45,638 nt of DNA from a virus, in IMG/VR virus record IMGVR_UViG_3300010413_000149, positions 1 to 45,638 of that record; one strand, given 5' to 3'. The notes under the pieces are model-generated. The model was given only the letters and a program-made list of their open reading frames with translations. It made no database searches and was not told the origin of the DNA. Shown piece by piece: positions 12,701 to 33,592 of this stretch (positions within the stretch are counted from its first letter, which is position 1; each line of letters starts with the position of its first letter). The position numbers were made by a program, and so were the translations under genes.

Positions 12701-14917
12701 AGCGTCTTCGAATCCCTTTATATAGTTATTGATTGCAGCAGCGCCGGATAGCGTTAATTCTCTTCCACCCGATATCGAATCAAGAAGACTGTTAAGTTCT
12801 TCATTTACCTTCTTAATAGGTACAGGAAATGCATCTGCGAATCCTTCCCAAAACAGATTAGCTACTTCTTCGCCAGCGGCAGTCATCGGAGCGGGTGCTG
12901 CCTGAGATGCGATATAATCTCCTACTTCATCGAAGTATCCACCCATATAATCGTGGATAATCGCAGGACGTTGCGCCTTAAGCCACCCATCTACCAAGTC
13001 GTCCGCCGCACTAGCTCCACTTTCCTGTAGATTAGCACTATCTACGGCGTCTTCCGTTCCCTCCTTCAGTGCTTTTTTAAGTTCTGAGGTGATAGGTTCA
13101 TATATTGTTTGAATACCGTCGTAAAGACCAGCGCGGTATTCAAACATTGTTTGATAGCCCCACCTATCAATATCAGGAGCGACACGTGGTGGAGATCCAG
13201 GAGCAAGCCAGAATGACAATGTAGAAGCAATGGCGCTAAAGACGGCATTAAGTCCGCTTAGAGCGGCAGTCATTCCACCTGCAAATGCAGAAATAATATC
13301 TCCGCCCCACTGTCCTACAACAGAAATCGTATCTGTTAATGCATTAGAAATTCCAGTATGCACATCAGAAAATGCAGTAACTATTACCTTTAGAGCGTCT
13401 ATGATGCGCTTCGCCATAGTAGCAAATGCGCCAGAAACACCGCCCGTTTCCGCTATCGTAGAAAGAATATCGGTTTTCCATGCGGTATTGAAGGCTGCAA
13501 ATGCAACAATTAGAATTGTTACAGGACGTATAAGTAGTCTTGCAGCCAACGCAAACGCTCCAAGAGCTAATGCCGCCGCAGATAGGACAATAGCTGTAGA
13601 CGTAAATGTTACAATTGCGCGTTTTAGTTCTGGATCAAGTTCTCGCCATGCTTTTATTGTTCCCTGAATACCCTTGATTAAGCGTTCTATTCCATTCTTA
13701 ATGAAATTGCCTATATCTTCGCCCATGACACGAAATAGAGCGATTGTTTCTATGTTGTTAGCAACTTCGATTAGGTCAAGTAACGACTTTCGAAGCGGCT
13801 CGAAAATTCCTTCGAACAATCTTGCAGTTCCTACCTGTTTTAGTTCTGCAAAGGCGCTAATCATACCGCCGATTGTTTCAAAGGCTACACGTTTTCCGGC
13901 ACCTTCAAATTCTCGAAGCGATTGAACAATTGCGGGTATTGTTACATCTGCTGTTATAGAACCTGCTTCAAGAAGAGAATCAAACTCGGTAGTAGCAATG
14001 CCAAGTTGCTTGATAAGAATGTCACGAATAGGGATACCAGCATTACCTAACTGTCGAATTTCTTCACCAGTTAGCTTTCCGCGTGCCTGAATTTGACCAA
14101 GAGCGCGCGCTGCATTTTCAAGTGTTTGTGGGTCAAGACCTACAGCAGCGCCAAGATCAAGAAGGAGAGGTATCAGAGTGCGTGCATCTTCAGCAAGAAG
14201 ACCGTATGCCTGCGCTACACGAAATGCCTGAACAACATCTTTAGATGTAAAGGGGCTTTCAACTGCTATTCTTTGCAACCATATTAGAAGACCCCTGGAT
14301 TCTTTTTGAGTCTGTGCAAGAGCGTCATTAAGGCCGATTGTGTCATCTGCCGCTCGAAGACTGCGCGCCGCAAAGAAATTAAGTGCAAGTTGAGAACGCT
14401 CAAAAAATCTTACAAGATCGACACCTTCAGAAACAATGTTTCTAACAGATATAAGTAGTCTTCTGAATGCGATAACGGCAATACCGCCAATAGCAGTAGC
14501 AAGAGCCAAAGACGCGGTTGTAGTTTGCTTAAATGTGTCTCTTAGTTGACGAAGTGAACGATTTGCTGTGTTGTATTGAGTGCCAAGACGCTGAAGCTGT
14601 CCAGTAAGATTATTTGTTACTAGAGCTAGACCACCAAACGCAGCAGAAAATGTGTTAAGTGATTGCCCGGTAGCAAATATCGCGGTTCCAAGAGTTTGGA
14701 TTGAGTTAGTAAGTTGTTGGAGAGCAAGGAGCGCCACAGAAGGAGCGGCGCTCGCTTGTTGCCAAGCAGCAGCAATTTGCTGTGCAGATGCGTTAATTGC
14801 GGCAGCAGTTTTAGCGGTTTCTGATTGAGCATCTTGCAGACCTTTTAGATATCTTGTGATACCTGCTGAAAACTGCCTTGTGTTAAATTTTGCATCAAGA
14901 CCTATGCTATCAGCCAT
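9701..14917 (-). CDS. tail tape measure protein
   Basis: At 1738 residues this is the longest gene in the window and lies just after the tail chaperones, the invariant place for the tape measure. About residues 160-400 form the conserved tape-measure N-terminal domain, including LTGEEIRQLGNAGIPIRDIL. Hydrophobic, possibly membrane-inserting stretches follow (about 435-476, and a second cluster in the 1200s with GIGALASAVAGLTVVISLAV). Between them lies a long charged coiled-coil region (DRLREQ..., QRVRNLQSERDEAVDVSEKQ). The protein sets tail length and guides DNA entry. At the usual 0.15 nm per residue the tail would be about 260 nm (inference). The start overlaps the second chaperone frame by 8 bases. 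Confidence 0.95.
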   Translation of the reverse strand: MADSIGLDAKFNTRQFSAGITRYLKGLQDAQSETAKTAAAINASAQQIAAAWQQASAAPSVALLALQQLTNSIQTLGTAIFATGQSLNTFSAAFGGLALVTNNLTGQLQRLGTQYNTANRSLRQLRDTFKQTTTASLALATAIGGIAVIAFRRLLISVRNIVSEGVDLVRFFERSQLALNFFAARSLRAADDTIGLNDALAQTQKESRGLLIWLQRIAVESPFTSKDVVQAFRVAQAYGLLAEDARTLIPLLLDLGAAVGLDPQTLENAARALGQIQARGKLTGEEIRQLGNAGIPIRDILIKQLGIATTEFDSLLEAGSITADVTIPAIVQSLREFEGAGKRVAFETIGGMISAFAELKQVGTARLFEGIFEPLRKSLLDLIEVANNIETIALFRVMGEDIGNFIKNGIERLIKGIQGTIKAWRELDPELKRAIVTFTSTAIVLSAAALALGAFALAARLLIRPVTILIVAFAAFNTAWKTDILSTIAETGGVSGAFATMAKRIIDALKVIVTAFSDVHTGISNALTDTISVVGQWGGDIISAFAGGMTAALSGLNAVFSAIASTLSFWLAPGSPPRVAPDIDRWGYQTMFEYRAGLYDGIQTIYEPITSELKKALKEGTEDAVDSANLQESGASAADDLVDGWLKAQRPAIIHDYMGGYFDEVGDYIASQAAPAPMTAAGEEVANLFWEGFADAFPVPIKKVNEELNSLLDSISGGRELTLSGAAAINNYIKGFEDADFSAINDIAGIISGRLSSLATIGEIGETDVPKILSKTREELVIAIEQFREFGEVTESQFKAIRSAAGPAGEATTEYLRKYIELASAASTVDESQKKLNETIEFYSELIDPIQDKLDRLREQTTQFSEQREIISLTRTINNEAASALRREEARSKIEQIRAEQRVRNLQSERDEAVDVSEKQLEGAKDVQSELENQLDVIRGRFKLQNEQLSLVADEQKIIERINKEIESLRKKEESQLDIQIKFARLLNEEERDRLDEARARYTLNQADSTEFEKQQALLQLQTIELNRQRRDIEATDLGFDAALFQPIRDAVIVFDDLNIKEKEAGQSFEEMIASIESGGPNATELADEWATAVDNVAKKYDLVKEKFGLALDAVNEGLPDFLKLFPTEKGEEPPILGNLKKATSGILLLSSVLVSTNIIIKLGQLKTALQLLGVASLGSKILGVFGAIGGGIGALASAVAGLTVVISLAVAAWISNFLNFRTRVNAEIASIVKEIVQFIEFLQNAVRIIQLVFSKEGRQQIKLEFGEAMEKAKNGDFSGFFGSKEQWKEGGVDLAESFVEGANQGLVFNPLAGFRHIINEGLNDALKETDTDTFATEVFNKTDASLQNISDDVAGSIANVFSGTSYRQRVIEEAGKTGEDISQGVLNGLILEDVQSENKILKFRDDIINKLKEKFDIQSPSKIMEDIIGIPIGEGVISGINKAFFSGDISESLSGLFGSITEQSRIGNNSIIRRFTAFNTSINLVLVELAKVIFKNWNEINKETVRYWNELALSIIESIKELAKELPSELKALKEVVVGVFKEIRYAVGDEVVGLTSDVVGYIVTNDDSMIARIRKALIGTTGPNGENNRDGVGYQLGISFTEGIAAGINDPTTWESVVKPAIQLFVQNWANEFSKKYETGSPSQLAVRELGIPFAQGIALGIIQGTPYISGAVQSAVNAGLGNITGFRQPLSPASIIGNIIPESNRTYNYNLNVSSSASSQGVINDFSIMRILGGV

Positions 14918-17702: not shown

Positions 17703-18156
17703 TTACCGCCTTTCGTAAGTGACGTAAAGCAATTGGATACATTTTTCCGCTACGCTTTATAGCAATGGAAGCGGTGAAATTACGTGCGATAATTCCGGGA
17801 AGAGGATGCGAATAATCCATTCGAATTACACCGCCTCTTCCTGGAAAACTTCCTAAGAATCCAGGTATTGTTTTTGGCTCGAAATCTGAAGAAAGTACAG
17901 CATACCTTCTTGTTGTTCCATCGTGGACGTAGCGATAGATATCGTTTGTCGTCCAAGTTTGCCTCACAATTTCATCACTAGAACTCTTGGTCGCCTGTTT
18001 GAAATTAGGTTTGTCATTCCATGTTTCTACAGTCGCTTCGTAATCTTGCTTGATTCCTTTTCCTACTTCTACGGCGGCATCAACAAGAGCTTTATTCAGT
18101 AAAAGAGAAACATTTTTAGGATTAGCCTTCATTTTAATTACATCTACGCTTATCAT
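17677..18156 (-). CDS. HK97 gp10-like head-tail joining/tail completion protein
   Basis: This 159-residue basic protein (VGKGIKQDYEATVETW; RRYAVLSSDF; ARNFTASIAIKRSGKM; then a C-terminal helix ALRHLRKAV) has the layout of the HK97 gp10 or minor-capsid joining family. Those proteins have an N-terminal helix, a central beta sheet and a C-terminal helical arm, and sit between connector and tail tube genes as here. The start overlaps the end of the connector gene by four bases (ATGA). The call rests on size, charge and position; the sequence match is modest. Confidence 0.6.
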   Translation of the reverse strand: MISVDVIKMKANPKNVSLLLNKALVDAAVEVGKGIKQDYEATVETWNDKPNFKQATKSSSDEIVRQTWTTNDIYRYVHDGTTRRYAVLSSDFEPKTIPGFLGSFPGRGGVIRMDYSHPLPGIIARNFTASIAIKRSGKMYPIALRHLRKAVNASGFAYP

Positions 18157-19451
18157 AGCAATCCACCCCTAAATTCAGTACCTTGATTTAGCGTAGATAT
18201 GTATTGCCATGCACGAAATTCACCCATCTTAAATCCAAAAGGAGATTTGAAGATATCCATTGTGGAAAATCTAATATTGAATTCGTTTCTGCTTGACGTT
18301 GTTAGGTCTTTTCGTAAATCTCGAAATAGGCTATCTGCATTTGCGCAAGAACATGGGGAGCGGGATATACGCGCTGTAGCAAGCCAAGCAATGGCACGCG
18401 CCATTTCTTTATCTAAGGGATTTAAGGACCATCCTCTTAGATAATCTTGTCCTATCAATCCAGATTGAAAATACAATCTTACTTGATCTGCATCTCTTCC
18501 CTTCAACCACGCAACCTGTGACCATGCTTCATTTTCTGAATCATACGTCGCAGGAAATGGGGTGATTACACCTCTGTTTGCATCTCTAATGGAAAAGCAT
18601 CCATCCTGTTCTATCAAAGAACACTTACTGCATCCACTTCCTCCACAATACGGGCATATAACTATTGCACCACCGCTATATGATTGATCTTCCCAAAGAA
18701 ATTCTACTGATACCTGACTGGTGTCATTGTAAACACGATAAACATCGACAGTAGAAACAAATGTAGACGCAGATTCTATATCTAATGACTGTAAATTTCC
18801 CGTTGTAGGATAAGCGCCATGCTGATCAGGATCTATCAGATTCCACGCGTCAAACTTAATCGTGGCTATGCCGCCAGAGATAGAAACAGACTTAATGGGA
18901 CGTATTTCCCATGAAGGATTGGCTAATGTTCCAGCATGATAAACGTGGATTTCTGAGGAATCTGTAATGTCAGTGGAAACAGTAATCGTTGCGATCTCAT
19001 TCCACCCATCACTGTCGGCGTCTGAATATACGACGGAGGCGTCTGTTTCTATCTCTGAAGAAGACCTTCTTCCTGGGGATATAATTCTCGTTTTATCAAG
19101 AATCACACCCTTTGTCTTAAGTTGAACATCCATATGATTTCCATAGGATATTCTATTATGACTTTTGGGATAAGAAACAACGTACTGTTCATCCCATTCA
19201 GGTGCTACATAGTATCCTAATACTTTTGCTATTTCTGATTCAGCCTGATAGATGCAATTTATAATTTCTTCATGTGAAACAATATCTTCAGTTGTTTGCC
19301 ATACGTGTCTAGGCCATACGTCTTCACAGGAACCAGAAGTTGTCCAATAATTTGTTCCACTAGCACCCATAAAATGGACAGGATTTATACCTAGTATTTT
19401 TGCATATTCAGGTAAAGATAAATGTGTATAAGGAAATGGTTGCGCATTCAT
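18153..19451 (-). CDS. head-tail connector/adaptor protein with a zinc-ribbon-like insertion
   Basis: The product is 432 residues. The N-terminal part (LSLPEYAKILGINPVHFMG; HEEIINCIYQAESEIAKVLGY) is helical like head-tail adaptors, and a C-terminal helical region (EMARAIAWLATARISRSPC) returns to it. The middle is a long beta insertion ending in CPYCGGSGCSKC (about 266-277), a compact CxxC-x4-CxxC knuckle that probably binds zinc. Adaptors of the gp6/gp15 type are usually 100-200 residues, so this is an enlarged form. It couples by ATGA overlap to the membrane-protein gene before it. The role is inferred mainly from position. Confidence 0.6.
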   Translation of the reverse strand: MNAQPFPYTHLSLPEYAKILGINPVHFMGASGTNYWTTSGSCEDVWPRHVWQTTEDIVSHEEIINCIYQAESEIAKVLGYYVAPEWDEQYVVSYPKSHNRISYGNHMDVQLKTKGVILDKTRIISPGRRSSSEIETDASVVYSDADSDGWNEIATITVSTDITDSSEIHVYHAGTLANPSWEIRPIKSVSISGGIATIKFDAWNLIDPDQHGAYPTTGNLQSLDIESASTFVSTVDVYRVYNDTSQVSVEFLWEDQSYSGGAIVICPYCGGSGCSKCSLIEQDGCFSIRDANRGVITPFPATYDSENEAWSQVAWLKGRDADQVRLYFQSGLIGQDYLRGWSLNPLDKEMARAIAWLATARISRSPCSCANADSLFRDLRKDLTTSSRNEFNIRFSTMDIFKSPFGFKMGEFRAWQYISTLNQGTEFRGGLL

Positions 19452-19815: not shown

Positions 19816-22800
19816 TTATTCTGCTCTAGTAAGAATTCTATTTGCTATCGATACACTACATTTTAGCATATCAGCTAGTCTTTTGGCATCAATTGAAAGC
19901 AGTCCGCTTTTTGTTCTAACGCCAGCATCTTCTAGAATTTTTGCACGTTCTGCGTTAATTCCCCAAATCTTGGTTAAGTCTTCGCGCTCTACAAGACTGA
20001 CGGGAGGTTCAGGTTCTTCGGCTTCCTCTACAAGACTGACGGCATTTTCAATTTGCCTGGGTTCTGGTGGAAGTTGCTGAACTTCTTTCGACTGTGTTGG
20101 AGTGTTAGGCTCTCTTGCAGGTTCTTGTTCAATAATCCTAACCCTATTTCCATATTTCATAGCGTGGCCGCGCGACATCCAAAATCGTTCACCATGAGAA
20201 CGATATCCGTAAAATGTGCCTTCCATGCTTATAGGATGATTTCCTATATTTCCGTCCTGTAGTTCTACTAAAACCTGTTCTCCTGCTGACATTGATTCAA
20301 TATTTCCTGGTGTTGATTGAGGGACATACGCAGGGGTCGGTTGAGGAACGACACGCCTTCTACTTCCACACCCACTACATGCCATAATTTCATCTGCCTC
20401 TCTTTTGTCCGTAAGATATTGTAACAACTTTGAACTCAGTTGTCTACCCTCTTCGCCTGACTCTTCAGGGTTAGCGAGAATACGTCGCATACCTGTATGA
20501 AATCTATAAACAATCAGCGGCCTAGTTATTCGAATAAAACACTTGCCGCGTCTAGAAAGTCTAAGCCAGTAATCCCAATCCTCCCATGATTGCATATCTT
20601 CATCAAATCCACCTATTTCGCCCCACCAAGAAGTAGGATGCAATGTGGATATAAGATTCCAAATATAAAATTGACCATTATTTAGAATGCTAGGTTGCGC
20701 TTGCGCAAGATCGCAATCGTAATCAGGAGTGTTGTATATAACAGTAGCAAGATTTTCGTCATGCTCGATAAGCCTTCCTTGAAATTGAAGTCTATCTAAT
20801 TCCTCCTTAGACGTGTGAGATATAGCCATATAATCTGAATATATAGCTTGTCCTTCATTTTCTATTGCTTGTAGATACATTTCATATAGCGCATCAAAAA
20901 GAAGAGAGTCGTCGCAGTCTAGAAATAGAAGGTACTTTCCCTTCGCTTCCTTCGCTCCTATATTTCTTGCTACCCCAGGTCCAGAACCTTCTTTTGGAGT
21001 TCTAAACCATCTTATATAAGGATATGCGTCTTCGAAATACTTCATATCCTTATTAGGATTATTGTCCAGAACTACAATGGCCTCCCATTTCCGAAATGTT
21101 TGAGCCTCTAAAGAATCTATAGCATTCGTTATATGATTTTCGTGTCCAGGACCAACAGGGATAACTACAGAAATCAAGGGTGCATCATATTGTGGCACTT
21201 CGTGAAATATATTGTTACTAGGTGACGCCATAGATGCAAAAGGATGCTTGCCATCTCTTGTTTCAGGATTCCACGCAAGCCAATCTACTTCTTTATAGTT
21301 TGGGTTTCCTCCTACCGCCCCTCCGAGATGATATCTAAATAGGGGTTGCTGAGTAGCAAGTTTACCGGCATATCCGATAGAACCAAATCTAAGCCATAAG
21401 TTCGCGTCTTCTGAACCGGCACCAGTAGGAGCGTATCGCTGTCTATATCCTCCGAGGCGTACTGCGATATCCCGTCTGAATACACAACAAGTCGGTACCT
21501 GGTTTCTTCGCTTAAGGAATCCATCATAATTGTATTCTTCAGGCCACTCAGACACAGAAATTCTTCCGTCTTGGCTTACTGCCTCCAATTTTGTATAGGC
21601 AAGCCCAATACTAGGATCTATATCTAAAATATTTGTACATTCTGATAGGAATTCTGGTTTTATTTCATCGTCTGCATCTAGGCAACATATATACCTTGTT
21701 TTAGATGCATATATTCCCGAATTGCGCGCATGAGCAACACCTTGCTTTGATTCATTCATAACGGTTACAGTTTTATGGGCGTCTGCCAGTCGTAACGCTT
21801 CACTATATGAATGATCAGTGGAATTGTTGTTTACAATAATTATCTGTTTTGCAGGGCGTGTTTGATTTAATGCGCTATTTACGGCACGCTCAAGAGTTCG
21901 TTCTTTGTTATAGCACGGTATAACTACAGTAATATCACGTGGCTGAGAGTAAAGTTCTATTGCTTTTTCATATGCACTTACTACCTGTTGCGCAGCATTC
22001 TCCCATGTCCATTTCTTCACCATCTCTGCGCCATTATCCCCAAGAATGGAAGAATAATTTAGGCAATAAGAAAGACCTTGGGATAAATCTTCATAATTAA
22101 AACAAGATGCGATATATCCATTTGTTCCATGTGAAACAAGTTCTGTGATATTCCCTTCATCGAAACATAGTATCGGCTTTCTCGAAGCCATAGCCTCTAA
22201 AGCGCCTATGCAAAATGTTTCTTTGGTCGTGGAAAGATATAACTTGCATCTTTGAATGATTTTTTTCATATCGGAATGTTTTTGTATTCCGATAACTTCT
22301 ACATTATCAGGTACTTGCTCTCCACGTGGATAGAATGTAGTAACGAACTTAATGTCAGGAAATCTTCTAGCAAGCTCACGCACAGGAACAGGACTGCAAA
22401 CATCACTATCACGATTCTTATTCCATAGAACATAACCTTCATCTTTTTCATTGTGAATCCATTCTTCTGCATCTATTCCATGAGGAATGACAATAGGATT
22501 CAGATGCATATCTCTTTGTAAGGTCTTTGCTACCCAGGGAGAAGGTACAGTGGTTATTGTGGCGCGCCTGATGCTTTCAGTTACATCACGATTCGCTCTA
22601 TGCTGCCAGTTATATGCGGGGTAATCTGCTGTCCAATATAGTCCATGAAGATGCGAAACAATGGGTGCGGAATTTGCAAACTCCCTGGTCATTCCTGCAT
22701 GAACCGCCTGAACATCAAATTCATCTGATTCCACAAATTCAACATCAAATTTAGGGAGGTGTTCTGCGTACTTTCGAACCAACGTATGTATTCCACTTTC

Positions 22801-22845
22801 TCCTGTCGAAAGATTCAGTGGGTTGGGTGTCATCAAAACTCGCAT
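19816..22845 (-). CDS. three-domain glycosyltransferase (GT4-GT2-GT2) fused to phage accessory domains and HhH
   Basis: The product is 1009 residues from MRVLMTPNPL, chosen because GGAG lies 11 bases upstream; a start 8 codons earlier is possible. Domain 1 (about 1-300) is a GT-B/GT4 glycosyltransferase with PHGID and ETFCIGALEAMASRKPIL. Domain 2 (about 303-530) is a GT2 with VIPCYNKERTLERAV and the metal site CLDADD. Domain 3 (about 556-800) is a GT2 with VVIPVGPG, FLDCDD and the WEDWDYWLRL acid motif. Then come CSGCGSRR (823-829), a small beta domain resembling head-accessory domains of other phages (about 851-909), and a helix-hairpin-helix (about 956-1006, LTKIWGINAERAKILEDAGV). Three transferases in one chain suggest synthesis of a defined oligosaccharide. 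The C-terminal modules may tether it to the virion or nucleic acid (inference). Confidence 0.88.
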   Translation of the reverse strand: MRVLMTPNPLNLSTGESGIHTLVRKYAEHLPKFDVEFVESDEFDVQAVHAGMTREFANSAPIVSHLHGLYWTADYPAYNWQHRANRDVTESIRRATITTVPSPWVAKTLQRDMHLNPIVIPHGIDAEEWIHNEKDEGYVLWNKNRDSDVCSPVPVRELARRFPDIKFVTTFYPRGEQVPDNVEVIGIQKHSDMKKIIQRCKLYLSTTKETFCIGALEAMASRKPILCFDEGNITELVSHGTNGYIASCFNYEDLSQGLSYCLNYSSILGDNGAEMVKKWTWENAAQQVVSAYEKAIELYSQPRDITVVIPCYNKERTLERAVNSALNQTRPAKQIIIVNNNSTDHSYSEALRLADAHKTVTVMNESKQGVAHARNSGIYASKTRYICCLDADDEIKPEFLSECTNILDIDPSIGLAYTKLEAVSQDGRISVSEWPEEYNYDGFLKRRNQVPTCCVFRRDIAVRLGGYRQRYAPTGAGSEDANLWLRFGSIGYAGKLATQQPLFRYHLGGAVGGNPNYKEVDWLAWNPETRDGKHPFASMASPSNNIFHEVPQYDAPLISVVIPVGPGHENHITNAIDSLEAQTFRKWEAIVVLDNNPNKDMKYFEDAYPYIRWFRTPKEGSGPGVARNIGAKEAKGKYLLFLDCDDSLLFDALYEMYLQAIENEGQAIYSDYMAISHTSKEELDRLQFQGRLIEHDENLATVIYNTPDYDCDLAQAQPSILNNGQFYIWNLISTLHPTSWWGEIGGFDEDMQSWEDWDYWLRLSRRGKCFIRITRPLIVYRFHTGMRRILANPEESGEEGRQLSSKLLQYLTDKREADEIMACSGCGSRRRVVPQPTPAYVPQSTPGNIESMSAGEQVLVELQDGNIGNHPISMEGTFYGYRSHGERFWMSRGHAMKYGNRVRIIEQEPAREPNTPTQSKEVQQLPPEPRQIENAVSLVEEAEEPEPPVSLVEREDLTKIWGINAERAKILEDAGVRTKSGLLSIDAKRLADMLKCSVSIANRILTRAE
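21223..21235 (+). repeat. 13-bp word TGACGCC-R-TAGAT, copy
   Basis: Exact copy (A) inside the triple glycosyltransferase gene. Confidence 0.8.
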
Positions 22846-23020
22846 TATGCGAATTACTCCTATAAACAACGTGAAATGAGTGGAATGTACCTATTTGAAT
22901 TGTTCCGCATATTCCGCATTTTGAAATAATTCTTGAACTTGAACCGTCAAAAGAATAAAGTCTGGTTATCCGAGAAGGAAACTTGCATTTTTCACAAAGA
23001 ACAACAGTCTCAAATACCAT
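22751..23020 (-). CDS. small zinc-ribbon protein
   Basis: The product is 89 residues. It has two CxxC pairs, CEKC near residue 9 and CGIC near residue 35, separated by about 22 residues, the spacing of a rubredoxin-like zinc ribbon. The last 30 residues overlap the glycosyltransferase start by about 95 bases and look less constrained. There is no clear ribosome site. The ATG lies inside the end of the preceding short frame (ATGGTATTTGA), which suggests translational coupling. Function is unknown; DNA-, RNA- or protein-binding is the usual role of such ribbons. Confidence 0.5.
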   Translation of the reverse strand: MVFETVVLCEKCKFPSRITRLYSFDGSSSRIISKCGICGTIQIGTFHSFHVVYRSNSHNASFDDTQPTESFDRRKWNTYVGSKVRRTPP

Positions 23021-23168: not shown

Positions 23169-24362
23169 TCACACAGGAGGATCTCCAGCATCAAATAAAG
23201 AATGAATAACCTGAATCATGTAATCCAATTCGTACTCTGATAAAAACTGATGGCAAGGAACGTAAAAACCATATTCCTCTATCTTTTTTGCCACAGGATA
23301 ATCATCATGATTTATGACTAAATTTGCATAGCATGGCTGATTAAGAAGAGGGAGCATTTCGCGTGATTCTATTCCGTATCCCCTAAGATAATTTATGGCG
23401 ACTTTTGACGTAATATATTTATTTTCACTTACGATGGGAAATACCATAGCAGCAGTATCATAGTCGCTATCTGGCAATTCTTGAAGAGAAATCAAATTAT
23501 CCGCAACCAGGTCTACAAGTTTATCGGTAATGTAGTTTCTATTCTTTTTTCTGTCCCAAATAACAGATTCAATGTGATCTAACTGCGCAAGCCCTATTGC
23601 CGCCTCAAGTTCTGTAATTCTGAAGGAATGACCTATGGAATCAAAACGAAAATGACGCCCTAGATGTGAGGGGTCGTAGAAGCTAGATGTAGGCAATGAA
23701 TCATGCTCTATTCCATGATTAACTAAGGAGCGCATCCGAAGCGCCAACTTTTCATTATCTGTTATTCCTATTCCTCCTACTCCCATTGTAAGAATATGTG
23801 CGATATAGAAACTAAAGCACCCTATATCTCCCCACATTCCTACAGAAGTTCCAGCATGTTCTACAAATAATGTTTCGCAAGCGTCTTCTACAATTCTAAA
23901 ATCGTGCTTATCTGCGATCTTAGAAATGCTAAACATATTGCATGTCATTCCAAATGGGTGCACAGGAACTATGCATACGGTATTTTTCGTGATTTTTTCT
24001 TCAATTAAATCAGGATTTATTGCAAATGTTTTTGGATCAACATCAACAAATACAGGGGCGAGGTTGTTATGTAATACTGCATTCACAGTAGCAACAAATG
24101 TTATAGACGGTACTATAACTTCGCATCCATTTGCCCATTCGTCTTCCTCTTTTAGCGCCTGTAGCGCAACCTGTAGCGATGATGTTCCAGAGTTAGAAAG
24201 AACTCCATAGTGGCCGCTGTGTAGTAATGCGAATCGTGATTCAAATTCTCCGCACATAGGACCATAAGAAATGCGTCCTGATTCTAAGACTCTATTGATA
24301 TTTCTACGGATACTATCTGTAGTTCGAAAATCACCAAGTCTTATTCTGGAAGGTTCTTGCAT
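23169..24362 (-). CDS. PLP-type nucleotide-sugar 3-dehydratase, ColD/E1-like (DegT/DnrJ/EryC1 fold)
   Basis: The product is 397 residues, family-typical length. Residues about 55-65 (LSNSGTSSLQVAL) and VEDACETL (158-165, Asp160 for the PLP ring nitrogen) place it in the DegT/DnrJ/EryC1 aminotransferase fold. The segment that normally carries the PLP-binding Lys reads SFYIAHILTMGVGG, with His189 in place of Lys. That replacement is the known signature of the coenzyme-B6 3-dehydratases ColD (His188) and E1, which remove the C3 hydroxyl of a 4-keto-6-deoxy sugar instead of aminating it. The likely product is a 3,6-dideoxy-4-keto sugar, made in the host cytoplasm. Its partner may be the fucose/colitose-synthase-like gene upstream in the cassette. 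E1-type enzymes need a ferredoxin partner; no FeS cluster Cys set is evident here, favouring a ColD-type reaction. The fold is certain, the subtype likely. Confidence 0.85.
   Translation of the reverse strand: MQEPSRIRLGDFRTTDSIRRNINRVLESGRISYGPMCGEFESRFALLHSGHYGVLSNSGTSSLQVALQALKEEDEWANGCEVIVPSITFVATVNAVLHNNLAPVFVDVDPKTFAINPDLIEEKITKNTVCIVPVHPFGMTCNMFSISKIADKHDFRIVEDACETLFVEHAGTSVGMWGDIGCFSFYIAHILTMGVGGIGITDNEKLALRMRSLVNHGIEHDSLPTSSFYDPSHLGRHFRFDSIGHSFRITELEAAIGLAQLDHIESVIWDRKKNRNYITDKLVDLVADNLISLQELPDSDYDTAAMVFPIVSENKYITSKVAINYLRGYGIESREMLPLLNQPCYANLVINHDDYPVAKKIEEYGFYVPCHQFLSEYELDYMIQVIHSLFDAGDPPV
23653..23665 (+). repeat. 13-bp word TGACGCC-N-TAGAT, variant copy
   Basis: C at the variable base; inside the sugar dehydratase gene, where it encodes His-Leu-Gly-Arg-His in another reading phase. 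Confidence 0.7.
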
Positions 24363-25087
24363 TATATCATTCCTAATTCTTTCAGAATTTCAACATCTTC
24401 ACCATGAAGTTCGCTAAGGAGAAGATTAGAACTATCTCCGCCACGTAATGCTAGTGTATGTCGAACTGGACATAATTTTTCGTTACTAGATTCCCATGAT
24501 TTAGTTCCTATTACGATTAAATCATCACCAAACGATGAAAGCCTTGTTGTTCCAGAAATCTCTACCTGCCACGGCGTTTCATCGGGTATCAGAACCTTTA
24601 GGATATTATTTCTATTCCACAGTCCACACATTAAACTCATGTGATATGCACTATTAGGGTCAGATTTTACCAGTGGAATATGCCCGCACATTCCATAATC
24701 CGCCACTCCACCAGCGTATCTTCTGTCCGTGTACAAATCAGCTTTTATTGTGTATCCGATTTGCCTCATGTAATCAGATAACATATTGACTTCTGTGATT
24801 TTAACAGGTTCAGTAATCCAATAATCTTCAAGCATTAAACAAAATATAGGGTCTTTGAAATGCTGCAAAAATTCTATTACGGCATTAGACCACCTAGATG
24901 CGGGATAATCTTCCATTTTGCCGATAGAATAGAATTGAAAATTAGGGGGAAGTTCAAAGTTAGGGTATGAAAATCCTCCGACAATTACACGCTGCTTTGG
25001 CGACCAGTATTTATTAAACAGATACGAAAACGGTCTAAGAGCGTGCATATAATTATCGGAAGTAAAAACATACACAGGAAAATTCAT
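24362..25087 (-). CDS. probable glycosyltransferase-like protein of the sugar cassette
   Basis: The product is 241 residues. The start (FPVYVFTSDNYMHALRPFSYLFNKYW) and the acidic-aromatic FCLMLEDYWIT motif (about 82-92) resemble GT-A-like proteins found beside sugar genes in phage and bacterial clusters, where such an ED/DxD site would bind metal and nucleotide-sugar. The rest (FGDDLIVIGTKSWESSNEKL) is not recognisable. It sits between the dehydratase and the epimerase with one-to-four-base overlaps (ATGA/TAATG style), so it is in the same operon and likely transfers the sugar made by its neighbours. Confidence in the glycosyltransferase role is moderate. Confidence 0.55.
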   Translation of the reverse strand: MNFPVYVFTSDNYMHALRPFSYLFNKYWSPKQRVIVGGFSYPNFELPPNFQFYSIGKMEDYPASRWSNAVIEFLQHFKDPIFCLMLEDYWITEPVKITEVNMLSDYMRQIGYTIKADLYTDRRYAGGVADYGMCGHIPLVKSDPNSAYHMSLMCGLWNRNNILKVLIPDETPWQVEISGTTRLSSFGDDLIVIGTKSWESSNEKLCPVRHTLALRGGDSSNLLLSELHGEDVEILKELGMI

Positions 25088-25755
25088 CTGTTTTCCTCAT
25101 ACCACCTAATAGTATTTTCCAATCCGTCAACCAGCATTACCTTTGGTTCCCAACCATAATCATGAAAAACCTGGGCTATCCTAAGTTGTCGCCGCATTTG
25201 TCCATCAGGTTTTGTTTTATCATAAACAATTTTTCCATCGAATCCGGTAAGTTCCTTAATTTTATTTGCAATAAAAGCAATGCTTGTTGAAAATCCAGTT
25301 CCTATATTGATAGGATCATAGGGTGTTGGAAGATTTTCTGCTATTCTGATATACGCATCTGCGGCATCATCAACGTAAAGAAAATCACGTGTAGCTTTTC
25401 CACTACCCCACACAACAACTTCTGATTCGCCATTTTCTTTTGCATCAATAAATCGCTTGATTAGAGCGGGAATTACATGCGATGTATTGTCGTCAAAATT
25501 ATCGCCAGGACCATACAAATTTGCCTGTAAGATATGGGCGGATTCCAAACCATATTGTTTGTAGTATGCCTGCTGCATGGCAAGAATAGCACGTTTGGAA
25601 ATTCCATAAGGCGCATTGGTTGGTTCTGGCTTTCCTTCCCATAGATTTTCTTCAACCATAGGAATAGGAGCGTGTTCAGGATATTCGCATACCGAACCTG
25701 CCACAACCAAAGACCATCCATAAACCCTACATGCCTCTACGACATTTATTCCCAT
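25084..25755 (-). CDS. GDP-fucose/colitose-synthase-like epimerase-reductase, C-terminal part (frame-shifted)
   Basis: This holds most of an extended short-chain dehydrogenase. AGSVCEYP supplies the catalytic Ser; PEPTNAPYGISKRA supplies the Tyr-x3-Lys pair. Later landmarks are NLYGPGDNFDDNTSHVIP and VWGSGKATRDFLYVDDAADA. These match GDP-L-fucose synthase and its relative ColC, which epimerise C3/C5 or C5 and reduce C4 of a 4-keto-6-deoxy sugar with NADPH. The true frame extends upstream of the listed Met to about 25857 (EEYPATVGGIGATNEY, then QYFYDNAIMGINV), where it meets the N-terminal part in another frame. Together the two parts make a 316-residue enzyme of normal length. Confidence 0.85.
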   Translation of the reverse strand: MGINVVEACRVYGWSLVVAGSVCEYPEHAPIPMVEENLWEGKPEPTNAPYGISKRAILAMQQAYYKQYGLESAHILQANLYGPGDNFDDNTSHVIPALIKRFIDAKENGESEVVVWGSGKATRDFLYVDDAADAYIRIAENLPTPYDPINIGTGFSTSIAFIANKIKELTGFDGKIVYDKTKPDGQMRRQLRIAQVFHDYGWEPKVMLVDGLENTIRWYEENR

Positions 25756-25792
25756 TATTGCATTATCATAGAAATATTGACCAGCATATTCG

Positions 25793-26032
25793 TTAGTTGC
25801 ACCTATGCCGCCAACGGTTGCTGGGTATTCTTCCTTTATTTGACTTTGTACGATAGTAAAACAAGTCTTTTACTTGATTTTGTGAACGAAGATCGTATAC
25901 ACCACTTTTTACAACATATACCTTTGCGCCAAGCGCCTCTAACTTAGGAACTAGATGGCTTCCTAGAAACCCTTGTCCTCCTGTCACCAGGCATAGCGTA
26001 TTTTTCCACAAGTTCTTCGATTCGTTTTCCAT
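25793..26032 (-). CDS. GDP-fucose/colitose-synthase-like epimerase-reductase, N-terminal part
   Basis: The fragment carries the Rossmann nucleotide loop LVTGGQGFLGSHLV and a good ribosome site (AGAGGACGGT before the ATG). After VKDLF the protein goes out of family sequence and stops. If one base of the run of four A/T at 25858-25861 is skipped, reading continues as DLFTIVQSQIKEEYPATVGG and joins the C-terminal part exactly where the family would. So this is a +1 shift at TTG-TTT-TAC: a sequencing or assembly indel, a true mutation, or programmed frameshifting. The first 29 codons overlap the regulator gene upstream. Confidence 0.8.
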   Translation of the reverse strand: MENESKNLWKNTLCLVTGGQGFLGSHLVPKLEALGAKVYVVKSGVYDLRSQNQVKDLFYYRTKSNKGRIPSNRWRHRCN

Positions 26033-26271: not shown

Positions 26272-27705
26272 CTAGCTGAGGAATGAACCCCAAGTGCTAT
26301 AGTTCTGCGTAGACTGTCCACGTACTGACAAACCACCATCAGCGAAGTAAGGATTATCAGGATACGGGCTACGAAGATGCTGTAGCGGCGTGTAAAGAAT
26401 ATTCTGCAACTTACCGGCAAGATGTGGAGTTCGCAGGATCACACGCGGCTCAATCAATGCCTGTAGATCGAAGCAGTACGATTGATCACGATAGACCCAT
26501 AGGAAACGACCCTCAGTAGTCCAGAAAGGAACACTTGAACGTCCAGCACCAAGACCTGCAAGCTGAGTCTGAATCTGCCGATAATCGATATACTCCCAAT
26601 ATGTCGAAGCAAAGTTACCGCGAATACGAAGCGGAACAAAGTAGACACTAGAAGCATACGAACCTGCGGGTACATTCGCATTTGTAATGTTTGTGTACTC
26701 GTAGATTCCATCATCAGTAATGACAGGATAGCGACGACCGTTGATATCAATGTACATGCCATTGCGCATTGCATCACGCATACTGACATTTACATTATCA
26801 TTGATAACAACAGGATTTGTGCCTGTATCCGTGGTGCATCGATGCGTAAGATATCGACAGGGCCAAACCGCACTAAGTTCTTGCCACAATTCCGGTCGAA
26901 GAACAACTGCCCAAGTCACAGGCAATAGTCCCATTCGTTCCGCATTGTGGTACAGGTAGTATTCCATCATGGAAAGATATTCAACAATATCCTTTGCCGT
27001 TCCATCCACAAGGGAGAAATTGAAATCTTTCACATCAGAATCAGCACCAGGCATAGCCTGGTTTGTGTCGGCGTCTACGTGACCCGTAGCTATTTGAGAA
27101 TCCAACCCAGGAAACTCTTTATAACCTCCACCAGCCGTATTGTTCGTAATAGCGCCCTGCCACATCATCTGTGACAATTTGCGCTGAAACTGAACACCGA
27201 CGCCTACCATTTCAGATTCGACAACCATGTTAAGCATCTGAGCGGGATTCAGATTACTCATATCCATTCCGGTCATACCAAGCATTTCACCGATAAGGCG
27301 AAGATCGGTATTCACGCCACGTTTTTCATGTAGCGTACTGGAAATTTCGATTGTCTGTGTTTCGCGAACGATACGTCCAAAACGAGCAGTAAGCGTACCT
27401 GCTTTCATATACCCTTTAGGAGCATCGTCACAAGGGTATACCTGTTCAGTACCCACAGTATCCGTGAATCCAGTAATGAACCCAAAGCGGGGGTCATCGG
27501 TGTTGGACGGAAGTGCGGGCAGCGCGGCACCAATACCCTGTGGCGTCACATGGGTAGAGATGATATCGGGTTCTTGTCCTACTACAGAAAAAATACCCCC
27601 AGGCTGTGTAAGCATGGTAGCAGTTGATACTGTAGCAGGCGCTTTCGTATGCATCGCCTTCTCTAGCACGCTGGCAAGAGCGGCAATAACTTCCTCGTTA
27701 GGCAT
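26272..27705 (-). CDS. major capsid protein (HK97 fold)
   Basis: This 477-residue protein lies after the protease/scaffold gene and is followed by a strong terminator, as usual for the most expressed head gene. Sequence marks are an N-terminal helical arm, VRETQTIEISSTLHEKRG, a long central part with GVQFQRKLSQMMWQGAITNN (spine-helix region), MRDAMRNGMYIDINGRRYPVI and FVPLRIRG, typical of HK97-fold major capsid proteins of larger siphophages. No furin-like cleavage site is evident by eye. Ribosome site AAAGGAGGCTATA is near-perfect, consistent with very high expression. Confidence 0.9.
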   Translation of the reverse strand: MPNEEVIAALASVLEKAMHTKAPATVSTATMLTQPGGIFSVVGQEPDIISTHVTPQGIGAALPALPSNTDDPRFGFITGFTDTVGTEQVYPCDDAPKGYMKAGTLTARFGRIVRETQTIEISSTLHEKRGVNTDLRLIGEMLGMTGMDMSNLNPAQMLNMVVESEMVGVGVQFQRKLSQMMWQGAITNNTAGGGYKEFPGLDSQIATGHVDADTNQAMPGADSDVKDFNFSLVDGTAKDIVEYLSMMEYYLYHNAERMGLLPVTWAVVLRPELWQELSAVWPCRYLTHRCTTDTGTNPVVINDNVNVSMRDAMRNGMYIDINGRRYPVITDDGIYEYTNITNANVPAGSYASSVYFVPLRIRGNFASTYWEYIDYRQIQTQLAGLGAGRSSVPFWTTEGRFLWVYRDQSYCFDLQALIEPRVILRTPHLAGKLQNILYTPLQHLRSPYPDNPYFADGGLSVRGQSTQNYSTWGSFLS

Positions 27706-29560: not shown

Positions 29561-30174
29561 AACTTAGGAAATATAAGTCCTTTCCATGTAGACGCACGAA
29601 CCACACACGTATTGCAATGCTCTGCTTCGCCTAAAGTCCACGTGCATTCGTAATGGTCTTCCATATTCTGTATATTCCAGTGACATTGACAGTTTGAAAG
29701 ACATTCTGTAGTTCCATCGCCAGGATAAGCAGGAAGAAATAGACCAAATGCGCCTTGCGCCTTCCCTCTTTCGTAAGATTCACGTGCGGCATTGATATAC
29801 ATGGCCGATCTGGCCTGTATCTGAGCCACAGTTAGATTGCCGCCAGAGATAGCGTTAGCGAACTGGTTCAAAAATGCATACTGGTTACGCAAAACCCATC
29901 CGATTCTACCCCAATCGGATTGCGTCATTCTATCTAATCCGCCACGCGCTATGATGTATTGCACGATATGAGTACGCTTGATAACTTCACGCATTCGAAG
30001 CGTCCACTGTTGTATCGTGATTTCTCCATCAGATAGCGACATAGCAAACATATCCATCTTTAGCATCTGGCTATCAGAATATTTCTGAATATTGCGAAGT
30101 ATGGAACGTTCTGGAAATATACGCCCATCCTTCTTGTAGATATATTCTTCAGGGAAGAACTCCCATTTAGCCAT
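29557..30174 (-). CDS. minor head protein, MuF/SPP1 gp7-like
   Basis: The product is 205 residues. The helical N-terminal part (KMDMFAMSLSDGEITIQQW; NAISGGNLTVAQIQARSAMY) and the Cys/His-rich C-terminus (CLSNCQCHW, ECTWTLGEAEHCNTC) match the phage head morphogenesis family, whose conserved end carries several Cys residues that probably bind metal. These proteins sit on the portal inside the procapsid and enter the host with DNA. It overlaps the portal gene by eight bases, as is usual for this pair. Confidence 0.82.
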   Translation of the reverse strand: MAKWEFFPEEYIYKKDGRIFPERSILRNIQKYSDSQMLKMDMFAMSLSDGEITIQQWTLRMREVIKRTHIVQYIIARGGLDRMTQSDWGRIGWVLRNQYAFLNQFANAISGGNLTVAQIQARSAMYINAARESYERGKAQGAFGLFLPAYPGDGTTECLSNCQCHWNIQNMEDHYECTWTLGEAEHCNTCVVRASTWKGLIFPKL

Positions 30175-32056
30175 CTTCTGCCTGTAATATCCCCGCTATT
30201 GTCGGCGCTGCTTCATCGAATTCAGTGGCAATACTATTGACATATTTCACAAAGTCTTCAGGAAGCGCAGGAAGTGGTTTATCAGAACCACGTGGTGTAA
30301 TCTTTACACCTGGTCCTGCTTTTTCTCCCATAGTTGTGCGATGCCGTGCGGCATTTCGCATATCGGAGCGAGATTGCGGAGTAGCAGGAGTTTGTTCGTC
30401 AGGATTATTTTCCTGGGTATCAGAAGAAGAAGTAGAAGAATTATTTTCTTGTTCTTGCTCTTGTTGTTCTTCCATTTGAATTTCCATTATCTCCTGTTCA
30501 TACATTTCCTGAAGCCTATCTAATGCTGCGATTGCTTGGCGTGCTTCACGCAACGTAGCAGGATTTGACGTTTCATGAATGTCAGAAGAAATATATAGAC
30601 GCTGTTCGTGAATGATTTGAATCGCCTCTTCAGGATCATTCGTCTTTATATTCGTCGGATCATCAAGTTCTAGTGAAAGCCAACGTTTGAAGTCAGAATC
30701 TTCAGACTGGAACAGAAGAAGAACGTCAAGTCCATTAGGAAGCCTGCCATTTACAAGTTCCATATCTTCAAACTGTTCCTGTGATATCTCGCCATTTTCC
30801 ACCATGAGTTCACGTTCTGTTCGAATGTCAGTAACCTGTGAAAGAAGATCGCGTTGTCGCGCTTGGCTGCGAGTATTGCGAATCACAGAACGTTGTTCAT
30901 CCTGATCGTCATCTAGGTAATCCATGTTAAGTTCTAAGTGTGCAGGAAGATAATATTCTTCCATGCGTTCTTTGAACGTTTCGATTACCTCGCTTACACC
31001 TTTGCCACGTCCTTTTCGATCCTGAATGCTGGCATTAGCGCGAGTTTGTCCTTGCAAACCAAAAGATAGCGCCAGATCCAAAAGATCCATTCCAAATGCG
31101 GCGGCAATTTCAGACTTATCCTGCATAACGGCTTCTTCGCGGTCGAAGCCATCAGGTACAGAATTCAAATCAAGCGTAGCAAGTTTCACTTCTTGCGTAG
31201 GAACAGAAGGAGCGATAAGAAGAGTGCCGCCAAAATGCGAACGACTATCGCTATCTAGTTTATATTGCCAAGTTTCTATGGCGTCTTGTAGTGATTTAAG
31301 TGTAGCGCCAACCTGCGCATAAAGAATTTGACGTGGAGGACGTGAACCAAACTTTTCAGAAGAATATCGGTAGATGTCCCATATTTCTTTGGCGGCTTCC
31401 AAGCAACATGACACAGGACATAGGCCAACGCCGTTTAAGTTAGAATCTGGCGAAGGCAAATTCGTCATTTCTATGACGCGTGTGTGGTGTAACTTATAGA
31501 GCGCGCCATCTGTGTGAAGATATATAACTGGAAATTCAGGATTTCTTGTTCGTGTACAGCGTTCCGAATCCATATGAAGGATTCCGACAGGAGCGCCAAC
31601 AATGGGGCCATCTTCTGGTCCACCACCCATAATCTGCATAAATCCGCCATTGTCCTGCGTTACTAAGTCAATCAAAAATTGCTTGAACGCGTGTTTGAAA
31701 CCTTTCATCGGCCCTGTGTTTAGCGTTCCAGAATTACGACGAAGGTCAGTTTCAAATTTCTTGGCAGATTCTACATGCCGCATAATCGTACGGTCGCGCG
31801 CCTGAATTGTAAAAGGAATAGTTACGGCTTTGTTGACAAATGTAGATACTGCTGTTTTTAGTGCTACATTATCAATCCAGAATTCACGAAGATATTTGTC
31901 ACGCGCACGCGACCAGTAAGGTGGAACATCAGAACCAGGGGGAATAATCCAAGAAAGAATAGAGGACGATATACCAGGTCCGGTAGTACCGTCCATCATG
32001 TTCTGAGACAGATCGATTGGAATTTTGTTGTCTATAATTCTGGCGATTTCTGACAT
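30167..32056 (-). CDS. portal protein
   Basis: The 629-residue product lies directly after the large terminase gene. Portal-like features are an N-terminal clip/stem region (DKYLREFWIDNVALKTAVSTF), the segment GILHMDSERCTRTRNPEFPV, then a crown part with AAFGMDLLDLALSFGLQGQT. The acidic, Gln/Glu-rich C-terminus (about 520-560, EIQMEEQQEQEQENN) is disordered. The protein forms the twelve-subunit ring through which the terminase packages DNA. The length is at the large end for siphophage portals. Confidence 0.88.
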   Translation of the reverse strand: MSEIARIIDNKIPIDLSQNMMDGTTGPGISSSILSWIIPPGSDVPPYWSRARDKYLREFWIDNVALKTAVSTFVNKAVTIPFTIQARDRTIMRHVESAKKFETDLRRNSGTLNTGPMKGFKHAFKQFLIDLVTQDNGGFMQIMGGGPEDGPIVGAPVGILHMDSERCTRTRNPEFPVIYLHTDGALYKLHHTRVIEMTNLPSPDSNLNGVGLCPVSCCLEAAKEIWDIYRYSSEKFGSRPPRQILYAQVGATLKSLQDAIETWQYKLDSDSRSHFGGTLLIAPSVPTQEVKLATLDLNSVPDGFDREEAVMQDKSEIAAAFGMDLLDLALSFGLQGQTRANASIQDRKGRGKGVSEVIETFKERMEEYYLPAHLELNMDYLDDDQDEQRSVIRNTRSQARQRDLLSQVTDIRTERELMVENGEISQEQFEDMELVNGRLPNGLDVLLLFQSEDSDFKRWLSLELDDPTNIKTNDPEEAIQIIHEQRLYISSDIHETSNPATLREARQAIAALDRLQEMYEQEIMEIQMEEQQEQEQENNSSTSSSDTQENNPDEQTPATPQSRSDMRNAARHRTTMGEKAGPGVKITPRGSDKPLPALPEDFVKYVNSIATEFDEAAPTIAGILQAEDG

Positions 32057-32065
32057 AATTTCCTC

Positions 32066-33592
32066 TTATGCAAATTCTATATCGCCTAAGATTTCTGCCC
32101 AAAAAGCATAGGCAACAGCATCCGAACGGTCTGTACTACGTTGTATACGCTTTTTAATATCTTCTTTCTTTTCTATCTGTATCCTGCTATTCGACATAGC
32201 AAACCATTTTGGCGTCATAAGTTCGCCAGTCAATTTATCATCAGGCGGCAACGCGACTTGCGAATCATAAGCAGGATCTAGCGCCTCACGAAGTTTCCAG
32301 TAGGCGGCAGAACGCTTGTCTACGAACGCCCACGTATTGGAACGGTCCATCATATCCGTGCGCTCGCGACCATTGAAGTATCCAATACGGTCTGGATATG
32401 TTTCGCGTAGTCTATCATATACACCTGCACCTATACCAACCACGTCAACATTAGCGTGTGCCAGCGGATGACGCCGTAGATGTGGTATGATCTGACCGAC
32501 TAACTTCATCGTATCGTCAATGTGGTGCGTTTCGAGCGATACAATCACGTCGCCAGAACGAAATGCGAATACGGAATCATCTTCACCTTGACGTGCAACA
32601 TCAATTCCGATTTGGTCTATAGTTAGGTGTTCAGAACCCGTTTTATCCATCAGTTCTAACCAGCGTTCGTTAGCTGCTTCAATCCACGGCAGCGGAATAA
32701 CCGAATCCACCTCAGATGCAGCAAATTCGCCACGAACACGATTTTTATATACTGCTGAATCTTCTCCCCATTGTAAGGCACGGTCACGCGCCCACTGTGC
32801 GTTGATACGTCCTGTGGATATGAATTCATCTAGTGTGACATGCCGAACCCACCAATCATGATATCCTTCCTTCCGTGAATGGATATCATAGAATCGTCCT
32901 ATCGGTTCACCAGGCGTCGAAATGGCAAGCCAAGCACAATCGCCGGAGGACATTGCTCCTTCTGCGCTATCCCAGGTGTCTTCCGGTATGATTTTCGATT
33001 CATCAAAGATGTAGAGGACCTTATCCGCATGAGCGCCTTCGATTTTATTGGAATCATTGGAGGCAACGGCAAAGGCTTCGCCAGTTTTTAATTTGAGAGA
33101 ACGACTAAGTAATTCTCTGTTTTCTTTGAATGGTTCGCGTCCTACTTTTTCCCAGTCTACTTTTCCTATCCACTTCTTTACTTCCGGCCATAGATATTTT
33201 GTAAGCTGTCGCCATGCAGAAGCGGTTGTCGGAATTTTCCAGTCGTTGTCTACATCGTTGACTAAGGCAAACCAGATAATAGCCCATGCCGCGAGTGCGG
33301 TTTTGCCAAGTCCGTGTGGACCACGACAAGAAACGCGCTTTTTACTTACAAGCGCGTCAAGAATTTCTAGCTGATATGGATCAGGATGCTTGTCTTTGTC
33401 GAATATTATGCAATCGACAACAAATTGTCCTGGTCTTTTCCTATATCTTTTCCTAAATTTAGCGTACTGCTGTTCCTTTTCACTCTTCGGATTGAACATC
33501 GATGATACGTCTTGTATCATCGAATCCATTACCGACAAGTTTTGAGTAGGATTTAGCAGCGTGCTCAAGGATTCTGGTTGATGTTTCGCCAT
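32066..33592 (-). CDS. terL: terminase large subunit (packaging ATPase and nuclease)
   Basis: The product is 508 residues. Walker A is GPHGLGKT (about 91-98), Walker B is YIFDES (Asp197, Glu198), and the RNase H-like nuclease begins with GIDVARQGEDD (first catalytic Asp about 331). It drives DNA translocation into the capsid and cuts the concatemer. The listed start overlaps the upstream gene by 113 bases and lacks a clear ribosome site; Met22 (33529) or Met32 (33499) are plausible true starts and would put Walker A at the more usual residue 60-70. The TerL call itself is certain. Confidence 0.95.
   Translation of the reverse strand: MAKHQPESLSTLLNPTQNLSVMDSMIQDVSSMFNPKSEKEQQYAKFRKRYRKRPGQFVVDCIIFDKDKHPDPYQLEILDALVSKKRVSCRGPHGLGKTALAAWAIIWFALVNDVDNDWKIPTTASAWRQLTKYLWPEVKKWIGKVDWEKVGREPFKENRELLSRSLKLKTGEAFAVASNDSNKIEGAHADKVLYIFDESKIIPEDTWDSAEGAMSSGDCAWLAISTPGEPIGRFYDIHSRKEGYHDWWVRHVTLDEFISTGRINAQWARDRALQWGEDSAVYKNRVRGEFAASEVDSVIPLPWIEAANERWLELMDKTGSEHLTIDQIGIDVARQGEDDSVFAFRSGDVIVSLETHHIDDTMKLVGQIIPHLRRHPLAHANVDVVGIGAGVYDRLRETYPDRIGYFNGRERTDMMDRSNTWAFVDKRSAAYWKLREALDPAYDSQVALPPDDKLTGELMTPKWFAMSNSRIQIEKKEDIKKRIQRSTDRSDAVAYAFWAEILGDIEFA
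32469..32481 (+). repeat. 13-bp word TGACGCC-R-TAGAT, copy
   Basis: Exact copy (G) inside terL, read there as Leu-Arg-Arg-His. Confidence 0.8.

Follow-up and report, generated by a model that had tools for sequence, protein, structure and literature searches.

The His-type sugar dehydratases that have been characterised, E1 (RfbH), SpnQ and ColD, differ in how they are equipped: E1 and SpnQ carry a [2Fe-2S] cluster bound by four cysteines, whereas in ColD there is no such cluster and PMP is restored by transamination (PMC8987622). Phages are known to carry genes of deoxysugar metabolism, amongst them gmd and fucose synthase genes, which were read as LPS genes (PMC12911398, PMC9602691), and glycans have been described on the capsid and tail-tube subunits of mycobacteriophage virions (Freeman et al. 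2023, as cited in PMC12619734).

The stretch analysed here (the window) is a linear IMG/VR virus record of 45,638 bases, which can be assigned to a tailed phage by its terminase large subunit and tail tape measure protein (Table 1). An uninterrupted frame without a stop, including CFSFYIAHILTMGVGG, runs across 23169-24362 on the minus strand and encodes a DegT/DnrJ/EryC1 protein that reads ...VEDACETLFVEHAGTSVGMWGDIGCFSFYIAHILTMGVGGIGITD... around the catalytic site. His189 occupies the position of the Schiff-base lysine and Asp160 is the aspartate facing the pyridine nitrogen of the PLP ring, exactly as a preliminary description of this DNA had numbered them, and the ten residues that flank His189 on each side include no lysine. 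The fold-type I domain spans the full length of the protein (Pfam PF01041, 275.6 bits over 370 residues), and the AlphaFold model has a pLDDT of 83.8, with low values only at residues 187-195 and 219-241. As the protein lacks the four-cysteine [2Fe-2S] motif of E1, it would be ColD-like rather than E1-like by the distinction drawn in PMC8987622. Judged by its sequence, the assignment as a dehydratase, ColD-like rather than E1-like, is well supported, with the enzyme belonging to a new subclade. Somewhat more probably than not in our estimation, the gene encodes a PMP-dependent ColD-like 3-dehydratase whose product is transferred by the flanking glycosyltransferases, most likely onto the virion.

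Table 1. Features of the window discussed in the text.
Feature	Coordinates	Strand	Remarks
Tail tape measure protein	9701..14917	minus	identified in the window
Presumed head-completion/neck protein	18153..19451	minus	directly after the cassette; homologs at the same place in 12 related contigs
Large glycosyltransferase	19816..22869	minus	1017 aa; GT4, GT2, GT2, Cys-containing linker/domain, C-terminal helix-hairpin-helix
His-type DegT/DnrJ/EryC1 enzyme, putative NDP-4-keto-6-deoxyhexose 3-dehydratase	23169..24362	minus	397 aa; Asp160, Ala188-His189
Probable glycosyltransferase with a GT-A fold, family undescribed	24362..25087	minus	241 aa; end overlaps the DegT start by one base
GDP-L-fucose synthase-like SDR, broken	25084..26032	minus	N-terminal part in frame 25793-26032, C-terminal part in frame 25084-25755
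Presumed major capsid protein (MCP-like)	26272..27705	minus	assigned only from its position following the terminase, portal-like and protease/scaffold-like genes
Portal-like protein	30167..32056	minus	by position; conserved in related contigs; no PHROG match
Terminase large subunit	32066..33592	minus	PHROG 2, E 1.1e-36

Bacterial relatives were sought in 970 genomes from samples of three phyla, each sample being labelled by the phylum of its centre genome. The Omnitrophota sample (285 genomes) yielded 3 genomes with members of the subclade to which the window protein belongs (clade A) and the Patescibacteria sample (287 genomes) yielded 8, while the Pseudomonadota sample contained none. These 11 proteins are separated by a clear gap (38-45% identity, 278-334 bits) from everything else in the Omnitrophota and Patescibacteria samples, which scores at most 213 bits. 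A profile of the subclade, searched against viral contigs, yielded 37 loci, 36 of them with the histidine and nearly all with an identity of 38-49% to the window protein, while scans of viral contigs with the single window DegT or terminase protein returned no close relative. The histidine is kept at the catalytic site of 11 out of 11 bacterial relatives and of all 36 viral ones; counted as distinct proteins, the subclade holds 41 relatives (11 bacterial, 30 viral), and every one has it. Since, in addition, the window protein deviates at 5 of 66 near-invariant columns of the subclade, as other members do (0-9), the histidine is due neither to chance nor to decay. We know of no assayed member of clade A.

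The catalytic motif alone was discarded as a means of finding relatives. A scan for the histidine followed by a hydrophobic residue gave only canonical RfbH in genomes (L137-L150), and a second motif scan, again missing clade A, gave a separate E1-side phage group (L126-L132). The latter group consists of seven viral contigs with His-type proteins reading S[FM]HAAHIITMGEGG and with DNCDG in place of EDCCD; in one of them (L131), the same open frame carries an HNH-endonuclease-like N-terminal part.

Most bacterial members of clade A share the signature ED[SA]CE[TS], CFSTYxAH[LI]xxTGVGG, GYSxR and ETRxxxPLxNQP. The C-terminal GN motif near residue 340, present in E1, ColD and the E1/ColD-side sequences checked, is absent from clade A, which has PL[LI]NQP instead, and the near-universal asparagine of GYN.R is a serine. 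Because both changes are conserved across the subclade they do not resemble decay, and substrate binding may differ from that in E1 and ColD. An E1-like cysteine-rich stretch occurs in the E1-type and in most sequences of a further His-type group (clade B), and is absent from ColD, the window protein and all clade A sequences. Directly before the catalytic His or Lys, His-type sequences have Ala, Ser, Gly or Pro, and Lys-type sequences mostly have Asn or Thr. ColD reportedly gained aminotransferase activity only once both its serine and its histidine were changed, which would fit the small residue before the histidine in His-type proteins. Clade B (L174-L185, L133/L151) is characterised by SLYxAHI[IV]xTxEGG, retains the cysteine-rich stretch in most members and comes from Omnitrophota and a plasmid of Solidesulfovibrio magneticus, where TPP-dependent dehydrogenase genes in the operon adjoin a GDP-L-fucose synthase gene.

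The gene for the His-type enzyme is the middle one of a cassette, between the genes for a GT-A glycosyltransferase and a GT4-GT2-GT2 glycosyltransferase, that lies between the presumed capsid gene and later head and tail genes. Wherever the genes are present, 18 IMG/VR contigs keep them on one strand in the order portal-like, protease-like, MCP-like, GT-A, His-DegT, large glycosyltransferase, 18153-like and 15807-like; 17 of these contigs are distinct, L218 and L223 apparently being the same phage, no MCP-like match was found in the examined stretch of L217, and L218 ends inside the large glycosyltransferase gene. A homolog of the GT-A protein is encoded upstream and one of the large glycosyltransferase downstream of DegT in all 18. 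The proteins of these contigs are mostly 30-55% identical to those of the window (GT-A protein 31-53%, MCP-like protein 33-55%, large glycosyltransferase 27-44%). The GT-A protein has no Pfam or PDB sequence match, and PHROG gave no more than a single weak match, for a relative; its model (pLDDT 91.7) resembles GT-A glycosyltransferases from the PDB and from viruses (Foldseek E about 3e-6 to 1e-5, TM 0.4-0.6), which makes it a probable member of that class. For the MCP-like protein no family match was found.

Some further features of these proteins are recorded here. The C-terminal end of the large glycosyltransferase (19816-20370, minus strand) contains a small conserved YGY..G stretch, and its helix-hairpin-helix is seen in the window and in L217, L222 and L244. 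The C-terminal half of the protein encoded at 15807-17303 (minus strand) in the structural block resembles a YCF48/BNR-type beta-propeller (PSII_BNR, E 4.5e-12). At 1238-4732 (minus strand), a protein of 1164 aa has many short repeats of the form TLDALTxSATGELDI and, by eye, a LamG-like stretch in its first half.

The terminase is 49% identical to that of Actinoplanes phage phiAsp2 and 48% to that of Streptomyces phage TurkishDelight. The portal-like and MCP-like genes, in contrast, have no match among isolate phages, which points to a mosaic genome, or perhaps to an actinobacterial host. No isolate carries the GT-A gene either. Of the 17 distinct related contigs tested, 16 do not share the window terminase, so either these phages are mosaic or their contigs are incomplete. 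The GC content of window-type loci ranges from 42 to 65%.

That glycosyltransferase genes lie within the structural block of the window is no proof of a virion acceptor. It is the fixed place of the gene in this block that favours the particle as the most likely target, and we propose glycosylation of the virion with a 3,6-dideoxyhexose. We put forward more tentatively, and at somewhat less than even odds, the general statement that widespread uncultivated tailed phages use a fixed morphogenesis-operon cassette, with a dehydratase of an undescribed His-type subclade, to make a rare 3,6-dideoxyhexose and attach it to the particle by two dedicated glycosyltransferases, one of them from an undescribed GT-A family. 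The sugar made by the 3-dehydratase could instead be meant for the host surface, altering O-antigen or capsule in superinfection exclusion or serotype conversion. The dideoxyhexoses of characterised systems do sit in O-antigens (PMC8987622), and phage sugar genes were read as LPS genes in papers on cyanophages (PMC9602691) and Patescibacteria phages (PMC12911398). However, the cassette is fixed after the MCP-like gene of the structural block in 18 contigs, for which late expression is predicted, and no O-antigen polymerase or flippase was detected among the window ORFs scanned with Pfam and PHROG, which cover part of the window; we therefore regard a host-surface target as unlikely. The O-antigen had been assumed as the target in the preliminary description, whereas the position of the gene points rather to the virion.

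Whereas the fold, the histidine, the place in the tree, the missing cysteine motif and the conserved gene order are observations, the reaction, the GDP-sugar, the product and the glycosylated target are inferred, as follows. The 4-keto group of GDP-4-keto-6-deoxymannose would condense with PMP to a Schiff base, His189 would take a proton and thereby let the C3 hydroxyl leave, and hydrolysis would give GDP-4-keto-3,6-dideoxymannose, with PMP being restored by glutamate and neither an iron-sulphur cluster nor a reductase taking part. The substrate would have to come from the host or from genes of the phage outside this record. Reduction or epimerisation of the product would fall to a ColC-like SDR, and the dideoxyhexose so formed would be transferred, most probably to the virion, by the two flanking glycosyltransferases encoded in the same block.

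Indirect support for GDP-4-keto-6-deoxymannose as the substrate of the subclade comes from the neighbours of its genes. In 5 of the 11 bacterial loci (L203, L204, L205, L207, L208) the His-DegT gene directly adjoins a GMD gene scoring above the NCBIfam cut-off (427-535 bits, cut-off 415), and fucose-synthase-like SDR genes are nearby in L209-L212. Loci from large phages (L229-L242, L246, L247, L249) have His-DegT amid GMD, GT11-like and often fucose-synthase-like genes. Of the 12 distinct viral loci outside the capsid-operon group (near-identical groups counted once; L228, L238 and L243 included), 9 have a GMD gene no more than a few kb away. For the window group itself, this substrate would be an extrapolation from the neighbours in its subclade.

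The enzyme might also be a PMP enzyme that acts on a 4-keto sugar other than by simple C3 dehydration, or one whose 3,6-dideoxy-4-keto product is passed to a TPP enzyme that makes a branched-chain sugar of it. TPP-dependent alpha and beta subunit genes are found near His-DegT on the Solidesulfovibrio plasmid, and weak matches to TPP genes occur in the phage loci L233, L234 and L237; since the phage matches reach only 52-58 bits and no TPP gene was seen in window-type cassettes, we consider this improbable.

A fucose/colitose-synthase-like neighbour, as previously reported, does exist, but not as a single open frame (25793-26032 and 25084-25755 lie in different frames). Epimerase matches cover 25874-25990 and 25300-25821, so the frame changes between about 25821 and 25874, and in the stretch between the halves the usual SDR core cannot be read in any frame. 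The C-terminal part scores 220 bits to NF047922. Whether it arose by assembly error or is a real break, the split leaves the contig without an intact SDR core, and the earlier claim that the phage encodes the last two steps towards a colitose-like sugar is not supported. An epimerase/SDR gene in a single frame is present in 9 of the 17 distinct related phage contigs. The reported absence of GMD was confirmed for the contig, and no GMD scoring above the cut-off was found among 18 records, the window included. The window record may be a fragment of a genome.

The broken SDR next to it raises the question whether the His-type gene is itself a decaying or inactive remnant, and no other member of its phage clade has a branch as long as that of its protein (0.94-0.95). 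Given an intact frame, changes at no more near-invariant columns than fall within the range of other members (5 of 66) and a preserved start overlap with the GT-A gene, we think this very unlikely.

Pairwise similarity alone would suggest a different enzyme class. The top sequence matches of the window protein amongst solved structures are Lys aminotransferases (7b0m, 159 bits; GDP-perosamine synthase, 152 bits), with E1 (129 bits) and ColD (111 bits) ranking below, and the NCBIfam scores for PseC (203 bits) and RfbH (181.5 bits; NF011936, cut-off 423) are both far under the cut-off. The model gives similar TM-scores to GDP-perosamine synthase and to E1 (TMq 0.87), and fold comparison cannot tell dehydratases from aminotransferases. 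With the best matches being aminotransferases and the model fitting both types, pairwise similarity does not decide between them.

Phylogenetic trees were built with the catalytic column 189 removed and with modest sampling of Lys-type sequences (14-22 rows). All Lys-type sequences fall on one side of a branch with an SH-aLRT support of 100, and a single change between His and Lys is sufficient, counted without direction as the root is unknown. The His-type proteins form at least three parts, E1/ColD/SpnQ, clade B and clade A. The window protein lies inside clade A with support of 99-100 and outside the ColD sequence clade, and in the bootstrapped tree of 55 rows it groups with 16 phage proteins at 100/100. 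Forcing it to group with the Lys enzymes in that tree costs 70 log-likelihood units (AU p=0.0005), and a histidine that arose independently inside the Lys clade, a scenario prompted by the best PDB hits, is rejected by the trees. A placement among Lys aminotransferases was the result named beforehand as the one that would count against a dehydratase; the same AU value (p=0.0005) speaks against it, and with His189 in place and a phylogeny apart from the Lys enzymes the protein sits on the 3-dehydratase side of the DegT family, as had been claimed. That the protein is a usual sugar aminotransferase, perhaps with its lysine relocated, is already contradicted and scarcely credible: the best sequence and fold matches are aminotransferases, but there is no lysine at or near the site, the histidine is present throughout the subclade and the phylogeny rejects the grouping. 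In the alignment with ColD and E1 that had been proposed, the histidine and the side of the fold family stand, while the closeness was overstated, the protein being part of a third subclade with 181 against 423 bits for RfbH and without the GN motif.

Clade A represents a third group of His-type sugar dehydratases beyond the characterised E1, ColD and SpnQ, and it is linked to an arrangement of genes that divergent phages have preserved in the interval from the presumed capsid gene to the later head and tail genes. Neither clade A enzymes nor the cassette were found in a limited search of the open-licence literature. ColD of E. coli (GDP-4-keto-6-deoxy-D-mannose 3-dehydratase; 2gms/3gr9) shares with the window protein the DegT fold, the histidine in place of lysine preceded by a small residue and the lack of E1-type [2Fe-2S] cysteines, and a GMD gene adjoins those of relatives; the window protein differs in its separate subclade, in lacking the GN motif, in the serine for asparagine in GYN.R and in a match of only 111 bits. 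E1/RfbH (CDP-4-keto-6-deoxyglucose 3-dehydratase; 3bcx) has the same fold (TMq 0.87) and likewise Ala-His at the lysine site, but the window protein lacks its four-cysteine [2Fe-2S] motif and reaches 181.5 bits against a cut-off of 423, and no E3-type reductase gene was identified among the window genes scanned. GDP-perosamine synthase (3bn1/3dr4), which uses GDP-4-keto-6-deoxymannose, is amongst the closest folds and sequences, yet it is a Lys enzyme that transfers an amino group, and the tree test rejects a grouping of the window protein with such enzymes.

Within phages, a parallel is AOV62151 of Synechococcus phage S-CAM7, a phage-encoded His-type dehydratase with GMD and GDP-fucose synthetase genes beside it. 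In contrast to the window protein, to which it is 27% identical, it belongs to the true ColD side and is encoded between metabolic and tail-fibre genes. Canonical RfbH-like (E1/ColD-type) genes occur in at least about 120 IMG/VR contigs; in view of these and of S-CAM7, the novelty for phages was overstated in the preliminary description, whose author knew of no well-described phage that makes a dideoxyhexose. The glycosylated virions of mycobacteriophages provide a precedent for the proposed target; to our knowledge, no dideoxysugar synthesis genes are known in the mycobacteriophage system. If the virion is indeed the target, the acceptor becomes directly testable, and these phages would go beyond borrowing host sugars by making a rare deoxysugar donor with which to coat themselves.
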